From assembly GCF_000319245.1 (NCBI RefSeq), contig NC_019814.1, forward strand, positions 372,001 through 436,000: a stretch of 64,000 bases of DNA, given 5' to 3'. Numbering within the stretch: position 1 is the stretch's first letter; the number at the start of each line of letters is the position of its first letter. The notes under the pieces are model-generated. The model did not search any database. It was not told the DNA's origin and was given only the letters and a program-made list of their open reading frames with translations. Source of the DNA: Candidatus Kinetoplastibacterium blastocrithidii (ex Strigomonas culicis). GTDB taxonomy: Bacteria; Pseudomonadota; Gammaproteobacteria; Burkholderiales; Burkholderiaceae_B. Below are positions 18,504 through 19,861 of this stretch, in pieces. The position numbers and the translations under genes were made by a program.

Positions 18504-18579
18504 TGTTCTTATATTTTAAGAGAATGATCCATATCTTGTGTATGATTTGTATTATTTGTGTTGGCTAAGGTTAGATTTT

Positions 18580-19533
18580 ATGCATGTTTTATTTATTATT
18601 GATCCTATAAATTCTTTGAAGGCGTATAAAGATACTTCTGTTTCTATAATGCGTGCTTTGATTGATAGAGGCCATCGTGTCAGTATTGCAATGCAAAATG
18701 ATGTTTTTATCGATTCTGATAATATAGTTAAGTCGAATGCTAACTCTATTTGCATTGATGATGATTTAAGTAAAAGCACTTGGCATTCTATAACTGATGT
18801 TTTTTATAGGTTTCCATTGAGTAATTTTGATGCAGTATTGATGCGCAAAGATCCACCATTCGATTTAGAATATCTTTATACAACACACTTATTGGAAATT
18901 TCAGAAAGACAAGGTGCAAAAATTTTTAATAGTCCTGGTTCTATACGTAATCATCCAGAGAAGTTATCTATAATGGAGTTCCCTGAAATAATATCCCCTA
19001 CATTAGTTACTAGCAATATAGGTTTTTTGAAAAATTTTTATGTGCAGTATAAGGATATTATAATTAAGCCACTTGATGGAATGGGTGGGGTTGGTGTTTT
19101 TAGAATAAAAGAAGATGATTCAAATTTAAATGTTATTTTAGAGGTATCTACACATAATGGCATGACTACTGTCATGGCGCAAAAGTATATACCTGATATA
19201 GTTGATGGAGATAAAAGGATATTAATTGTTGGAAATAGAATAATTCCATTTTGTTTAGCTAGGCTACCTTTGATGGGTGATCATCGAGGTAATCTTGCAG
19301 TGGGTGGGATAGGTAAAGTTCAAAAATTATCTGATAGTGATATTAATATAGCAAACATTGTTTACAATAGATTACATGGGCGTGGTCTTTATATAATTGG
19401 TTTAGATATAATAGGCAGATATTTAACTGAGATAAATGTAACGAGTCCTACATGTTTTGTAGAAATTTCAGAGCAAGCTGGTTTTAATATTGCTAATATA
19501 TTCGTAGAGTTTTTAGAAAAAAAAGTAAATTAG
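18580..19533 (+). CDS. gshB: Glutathione synthetase
   Basis: ATP-grasp ligase that joins gamma-glutamylcysteine and glycine. Characteristic segments: FIIDPINSLKAYKDTS at the N-terminus, RKDPPFDLEYLYTT (around 88-101), IIKPLDGMGGVGVFRI in the ATP-grasp fold, and DIIGRYLTEINVTSPT near the end. Start ATG 18580 is chosen over the upstream in-frame ATG 18538 because AAGG precedes it and the N-terminus then fits the family. Length is 317 residues. It follows infC at a junction not typical of relatives. gshA is not in this window. Confidence 0.95.
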   Translation: MHVLFIIDPINSLKAYKDTSVSIMRALIDRGHRVSIAMQNDVFIDSDNIVKSNANSICIDDDLSKSTWHSITDVFYRFPLSNFDAVLMRKDPPFDLEYLYTTHLLEISERQGAKIFNSPGSIRNHPEKLSIMEFPEIISPTLVTSNIGFLKNFYVQYKDIIIKPLDGMGGVGVFRIKEDDSNLNVILEVSTHNGMTTVMAQKYIPDIVDGDKRILIVGNRIIPFCLARLPLMGDHRGNLAVGGIGKVQKLSDSDINIANIVYNRLHGRGLYIIGLDIIGRYLTEINVTSPTCFVEISEQAGFNIANIFVEFLEKKVN

Positions 19534-19573
19534 ATTTTATATTTAAGTTTATCCATGAATAGTGTATAATATT

Positions 19574-19825
19574 ATGTTATCCAAAAATGTTACTGTTAAT
19601 AATGAGTACGGATTAAATGCTACTGAGTCTATTAAATTGACTAATATTGCAAGTAGTTTTCAAAGTGATGTTTTTATCTCTAGTAATTCTCGCAGAGTAA
19701 ATGCAAAAAGCATAATGGGTGTTATGATGCTAGCTGCTTGTAACGGAACAAATATCAAAATAGAGACTAATGGGATAGACTCTGAGGAAGCTATGGATGC
19801 TATTGTTGATTTTTTCAATAAATAA
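19574..19825 (+). CDS. ptsH: HPr-family protein lacking the active-site histidine
   Basis: An 83-residue HPr-fold protein. The betaproteobacterial HPr pattern is easy to follow (MLSKNVTV at the N-terminus, RRVNAKSIMGVMMLAA around 40-55, EEAMDAI near the end). Residue 15, His in the GLHAR active site of phosphotransferase HPr, is Asn here (codon AAT), and Arg17 is Thr, so it cannot accept phosphate from enzyme I by the known mechanism. Ser46, the HPr-kinase site, is kept. The EIIA and enzyme I genes usual beside it in relatives are missing. ATG 19574 is preferred to GTG 19562. It may be a regulatory relic or a new binding protein. Confidence 0.88.
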   Translation: MLSKNVTVNNEYGLNATESIKLTNIASSFQSDVFISSNSRRVNAKSIMGVMMLAACNGTNIKIETNGIDSEEAMDAIVDFFNK

Positions 19826-19861
19826 TAAATGTTAGTTTGGCAAAAAATTAATAATCATTAC

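Follow-up and report, generated by a model that had tools for sequence, protein, structure and literature searches.

The protein encoded at positions 19574–19825 of the window (the whole stretch of 64,000 nucleotides that was analysed) is likely to descend from genuine HPr, to have lost its phosphorelay chemistry and to survive as a small regulator switched at Ser46 by HPr kinase/phosphorylase (HprK). The gene lies between gshB and dut, with the following features.

18538–19533, plus strand: gshB, the upstream neighbour of ptsH; the EIIA-man gene found between gshB and ptsH in the outgroup is missing.
19534–19573, no strand assigned: 40-bp gshB–ptsH junction, the site of the EIIA-man gene in outgroup loci.
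19574–19825, plus strand: ptsH-like gene for an HPr without His15, 83 amino acids, with its ATG at 19574 and its stop codon at 19823–19825.
19616–19618, plus strand: codon 15, AAT (Asn); His in 34 of the 34 HPrs read outside the genus.
19697–19738, plus strand: Ser46 block VNAKSIMGVMMLAA, residues 42–55, the expected HprK target region by alignment.
19709–19711, plus strand: codon 46, AGC (Ser), the predicted phosphorylation site.
19826–19861, no strand assigned: 36-bp junction after ptsH, the ptsI (EI) site in outgroup loci, here followed by dut on the minus strand.

The sequence and the predicted structure both place this protein in the HPr family. It matches Pfam PF00381 (7.7e-25; 87.2 bits against a cut-off of 23) and TIGR01003 (83.1 bits, cut-off 47.9); the second-best NCBIfam model, NF010354, which we take to be the Crh model, gives 75.2 bits and lies below its cut-off of 123. 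A GTG 12 bases upstream of the ATG is a possible alternative start. The AlphaFold2 model, for which the input alignment consisted of 19 clostridial HPr-like sequences, has a mean pLDDT of 94.3 and the strand and helix order of the HPr fold. Foldseek returned 39 PDB matches to this model (E ≤ 0.001), all of them HPr or Crh or their complexes as judged by title, and Escherichia coli HPr with His15 replaced by Asp is among them. Residues 15–18 read Asn-Ala-Thr-Glu. A preliminary description of the window had reported a position-for-position HPr with Asn15 (AAT), Thr17 and an unchanged Ser46 block, and its coordinates and residues are correct. It had also named a second HPr together with EI elsewhere in the genome as the finding that would point to a decaying paralogue; neither was found, the window copy being the sole HPr match in the 820,037-base genome at an E value of 0.001.

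The partners of the relay are missing from the whole genus, the members of which very probably live inside insect trypanosomatids. Gene content and composition, set against what is published on trypanosomatid symbionts, agree with Candidatus Kinetoplastibacterium; of the conclusions, those on the published proteome and on the host are the ones that rest on this identity. Our relative set comprised 61 genomes including the window's own, eight of the genus and 53 outside it. The EI N-terminal domain (PF05524) is present in 53 of the 61, and the eight without it are exactly the eight genus members; EIIA-man shows the same split and is absent from all eight, and EIIA-Ntr is kept in one of them (G004). 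EI, HPr and HprK are found in 53, 53 and 52, respectively, of the 53 genomes outside the genus. At each of the three outgroup loci examined (G014, G008 and G009) the gene order is gshB, EIIA-man, ptsH, ptsI; in the seven genus members that carry HPr, gshB is followed by ptsH and then by dut without a gene between. A tblastn search (E 0.01) using the EI and EIIA-man proteins of one relative as queries found no remnant of either gene at the ptsH locus of these seven members or in the window. The loss of the flanking EIIA and EI genes, which had been noticed from the window, extends to the whole genome.

The change at residue 15 is shared by every genus member that has the gene. Asn is found in G000–G002 and G004 (AAT or AAC) and Asp in G005–G007 (GAT), and His in none of the seven. 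Residue 17 is Thr, Val or Ser, with Arg17 in 0/7, and residue 18 is Glu in 7/7. The 32 tabulated outgroup HPrs have His-Ala-Arg-Ala at residues 15–18, with Pro18 in one of them, and His15 is kept in all of the 34 HPrs read outside the genus; these are the 32, the HPr of G044 (GVHARP; included in the His15 count by eye and left out of the column counts) and that of G207, with further outgroup HPr matches lying outside the count. At positions 12, 15, 17, 18 and 24, each of the seven genus HPrs has a residue other than that of the outgroup majority, column 24 being counted as changed although Lys also occurs there in two of the 32 outgroup sequences. The exchanges of His15 and Arg17 to which attention had been drawn are therefore both real, but the change is confined neither to two residues nor to one genome. 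G004 clusters with G005–G007 in a tree of ThrS and InfC (support 100), and because of this grouping and of the codons the simplest path for residue 15 would probably have led from CAY through AAY to GAY in single steps.

The region around Ser46 has changed much less. Ser46 is kept in 7/7, and V50I, seen in four of the seven, is the only change inside the genus within residues 42–55. Taking a column as near-invariant if the same residue occurs in at least 30 of the 32 outgroup HPrs, seven of 13 such columns in the region 10–26 are changed in some genus member, compared with one of 14 in the region 42–58; Fisher's test gives p = 0.013, a value that serves as a guide only, the two regions having been picked after the table had been seen. 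The binding faces of HPr for EI and HprK overlap in part, so this contrast is no clean face-by-face test. Within the genus, pN is 0.209 for columns 59–78, 0.175 for columns 4–36 and 0.067 for columns 40–58; the C-terminal third varies like the His15 half, and the relaxation is thus not restricted to the relay face.

One might suppose that a phosphorelay is still running, with EI activity supplied by the host or by another protein, or with Asp15 or Asn15 taking part in phosphotransfer. The EIIA-Ntr-like protein of G004 (L053:4132-4590) would fit this: it retains the IPHG histidine region, although G004 has neither EI nor a His15 HPr, and it scores 100.6 bits against the NCBIfam PtsN model, under the cut-off of 138.7. 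It could also be speculated that Asp15 imitates the charged state. However, none of the eight genus genomes has the EI N-terminal domain, a phosphohistidine is impossible at residue 15 in 7/7, and PTS homologues in eukaryotes numbered none in a 2008 survey, according to its available text (PMC2405797). We consider a working relay to be highly improbable.

The kinase, on the other hand, has been retained where HPr is. A search for hprK, which the preliminary description had suggested, located the gene at about G000:C1:74907-75839, with the start codon picked by comparison with the sister genomes. The HprK of the window genome contains both the N-terminal (PF02603) and the C-terminal (PF07475) domains and scores 323.8 bits against the equivalog model TIGR00679 (cut-off 240). 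All seven genus members retain 66 of the 76 columns that are invariant in eight outgroup sequences; among these are the nucleotide-binding P-loop GxSGxGKSE, the histidine of HGV and the ADD pair, conserved positions that we presume to be catalytic. HPr is present in seven of the eight genus genomes and HprK in the same seven, with ptsH and hprK at separate loci.

The eighth genome, G003, lacks HPr, HprK and EIIA-Ntr in a genome-wide search, and in the ThrS and InfC tree it forms the sister lineage of the seven others (three outgroups, support 100, long branch). At its ptsH locus both gshB and ptsH are gone, and the interval from kdsC to rapZ no longer contains the lpt genes, hpf, ptsN or hprK; both statements are at the level of the locus, and each of the two losses, of ptsH and of hprK, lies inside a larger deletion. 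That ptsH and hprK were lost separately, in this one lineage, agrees with a pairing of their products in function. The survival of one genus member with neither protein nevertheless speaks against the switch.

Some further observations were made around these genes. The former hpf-ptsN-hprK-rapZ cluster (L191:7436-9149, L050:4243-5543) shows a reciprocal loss: G003 has kept rapZ, with hprK and ptsN absent from its genome and hpf absent at the cluster locus, and the other seven genus members have kept hprK, with rapZ absent. The lptB gene of G000 (L050:3408-4180; G000:C1 about 73704-74476, outside the window) is seemingly frameshifted in a T run, leaving 198 codons with the remainder apparently in another frame as judged by eye; the copy in G004 encodes 260 amino acids without interruption. 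Slippage, an error of sequencing or decay could each account for this.

A second comparison comes from outside the genus. Among the 53 genomes, G054 alone combines HPr and EI with the absence of HprK, and its HPr keeps His15 and Ser46 in an eroded Ser46 block (TIDAKSILSVMTLAAKCD, L006). Of the 14 near-invariant columns in the region 42–58, G054 has five changed; G037 and G038 have a single changed column apiece, and the remaining 29 tabulated HPrs have no change there. This single case suggests that the Ser46 block may be held in place by the kinase; the erosion of the block where HprK is missing makes its preservation in the genus more telling.

Both comparisons bear on a further explanation, namely that the symbiont HPr is a constitutive binding partner, with its Ser46 face conserved for binding and HprK kept for some other substrate. 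HPr-type proteins can bind enzymes without being phosphorylated: the available text of PMC12291648 reports that unphosphorylated Crh of Bacillus binds and inhibits MgsA, and that phosphorylation reduces this binding. The separate loci of hprK and ptsH would also agree with independent roles. However, the two proteins are kept or lost together in 8/8 genus genomes, with the losses in G003 falling at two loci, and an eroded Ser46 block in a genome without HprK is unexpected from a binding face alone. Constitutive binding is thus an unlikely explanation, albeit one with more to recommend it than a running relay. The preliminary description had left it between a serine-phosphorylated and a purely binding regulator reduced from a former relay protein; reduction to a regulator is supported, and, from the comparison of sequences, the serine-phosphorylated form appears to be favoured, given the joint retention or loss of HPr and HprK in the genus and the erosion of the block in G054, where HprK is missing.

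Selection on the gene is strong. For six within-clade pairs, dN/dS is 0.039–0.074 for HPr (with dS of 0.23–0.56) and 0.034–0.046 for HprK. The same pairs give 0.097–0.141 for thrS, 0.135–0.309 for gshB, 0.066–0.132 for dut, 0.147–0.190 for coaBC and 0.029–0.054 for infC, so that HPr lies under thrS, gshB, dut and coaBC in 6/6 pairs and infC is similar or lower. Between clades the HPr values are 0.12–0.32, with dS near saturation and one pair saturated. The gshB gene (window 18538-19533) has the highest dN/dS of the five neighbouring genes in five of the six within-clade pairs and, like ptsH, is gone from this locus in G003 (L194:2988-4065).

Proteins of these names are also recorded at the protein level. 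The 2025 proteome of the Angomonas deanei symbiont lists both an HPr kinase/phosphorylase and a phosphocarrier protein (PMC12645908, Table 2), and its authors, in the available text, read both proteins as carbon catabolite repression; no mention of the loss of His15 or the absence of EI was found in that text.

The gene might nevertheless be seen as a decaying relic of the PTS, drifting since EI was lost; EI and EIIA-man are absent from 8/8 genus genomes and EIIA-Ntr from 7/8, and the genomes are small. Against such drift stand the within-clade dN/dS values at appreciable dS, a reading frame that is open in all seven genus members with the gene, the listing of the protein in a symbiont proteome and the complete absence of HPr from five other near-complete genomes without EI (see below). 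We give the relic explanation hardly any weight. The ptsH gene is not a decaying gene, as is seen from the low dN/dS, the open frames and the listing in the proteome, and a pseudogene is rejected on these grounds. A ratio near 1 with no HprK in the genome had been put forward as the mark of decay; the values found within clades are far below 1, and HprK is present.

In order to see how unusual this is, we used a sample of 399 genomes of the order, 346 of them near-complete. EI is present in 384 of the 399. Seven of the 346 near-complete genomes have no EI: two belong to the genus, and the other five are without both HPr and HprK. In this sample the loss of EI is thus otherwise accompanied by the loss of both proteins, and the genus is the exception. 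Among the eight EI-less genomes of lower quality, HPr was found in one (G207, 82% complete), with His15; its missing EI may be due to an assembly gap.

HPrs without His15 that carry the kinase motif are found in other lineages. A pattern for such proteins, verified against all seven genus members, matched at least 118 loci, of which 80 were read; the scan is uninformative on proteobacteria. Residue 15 at the 80 loci is Glu in 70, Asp in six, Gly in two, Ala in one and Asn in one, and the kinase motif is VNAKSIM in 79 and VNCKSIM in one. The titles of these loci (L072–L151) are mostly those of Lachnospiraceae and other Clostridia, with a few giving only 'bacterium' or Bacillota. In the open-licence literature, as far as its available text extends and including PMC3616161, PMC5632650, PMC8406214 and PMC12645908, we found no account of these symbionts having lost His15 across the genus.

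Considering these data together, the symbiont HPr would most probably act as an effector that binds other proteins, its state being set by HprK according to the levels of phosphate, pyrophosphate and sugar phosphates, as judged by analogy. If this HprK behaves like others, high levels of energy or of glycolytic intermediates would lead it to phosphorylate Ser46, and high inorganic phosphate to dephosphorylate it; one of the two forms of HPr might then bind and adjust an enzyme of central metabolism. The lead candidate for this target would be inorganic pyrophosphatase, because NPr and HprK of Brucella both bind it in yeast two-hybrid experiments (available text of PMC2937029).

Several other partners were considered and set aside. 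The available text of PMC5031443 gives CrgA, a LysR-type protein, as a target of meningococcal HPr; a CrgA-like target is unlikely here, as the LysR substrate domain is found in 0/8 genus genomes. RapZ is absent from the seven genomes with HPr and present in the one without, and EIIA-Ntr is kept in just one of the eight. A link from EIIA-man to SucA, as described for Brucella in the available text of PMC2937029, is rejected given the absence of EIIA-man from all eight.

It seems to us about evenly balanced whether the wider picture holds, in which all that is left of a sugar relay is a kinase with its single substrate and the HprK–HPr(Ser46) switch helps to match the carbon or energy metabolism of the endosymbiont to its trypanosomatid host. 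Earlier genome work, in its available text, could not trace the carbon source of the symbiont (PMC5632650). If the switch is as proposed, the genus would be a natural proof that the serine branch of proteobacterial HPr signalling has its own selected output. In proteobacteria, the work of HprK and of serine-phosphorylated HPr can hardly be told apart from that of the histidine relay, since almost all of the relatives sampled carry EI, HPr and HprK side by side; in the genus, the relay has been lost in evolution and the serine branch kept under strong selection, so that the function of the serine branch becomes directly testable.

The closest known counterpart is Crh of B. subtilis, which likewise has the HPr fold without His15 (Gln15, in GLQARP), keeps VNAKSIMG and has HprK as its partner. 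In Bacillus, Crh is a paralogue in a genome that also encodes a normal HPr and a complete PTS. Unlike Crh, the genus HPr is the sole HPr, with EI gone and no His15 HPr beside it; it has Asn or Asp at residue 15 rather than Gln, and Arg17 and Ala/Pro18 have been lost as well. The window HPr resembles Crh in its non-His residue 15, its kept Ser46 motif and the HprK in its genome, and differs in the lack of a co-resident His15 HPr and in scoring below the NF010354 cut-off. As an HPr, it has the sequence and fold of the family, but it does not have His15 or Arg17 and its genome does not have EI. Crh in the CcpA–Crh–DNA complex (PDB entry 1zvv) superimposes on the window HPr model with TM scores of 0.96/0.95.

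The non-His HPrs of Lachnospiraceae and other Clostridia have also kept the kinase motif; they belong to a distant lineage and, unlike the genus HPrs, keep the ARP motif beside residue 15 in 66 of the 80 loci read. Brucella melitensis is a host-associated bacterium with a proteobacterial HprK and an HPr-type protein; in the available text of PMC2937029, its HprK uses the conserved Ser of NPr as phosphorylation site, with fructose-1,6-bisphosphate as a stimulator and phosphate as an inhibitor of the kinase. In contrast to the symbionts, B. melitensis still has a working relay, made up of EI-Ntr, an NPr with the relay residue His30 and both EIIAs (PMC2937029). Bartonella and Ureaplasma urealyticum are like the genus in having ptsH without ptsI, according to the available text of PMC2405797. 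The best reading of these comparisons is that the genus HPr works like Crh of Bacillus but arose independently. Since many Clostridia have HPrs that lack His15 but carry the kinase motif, the kind of protein is already known, from there and from Bacillus Crh; what is new is the setting and the independent origin.
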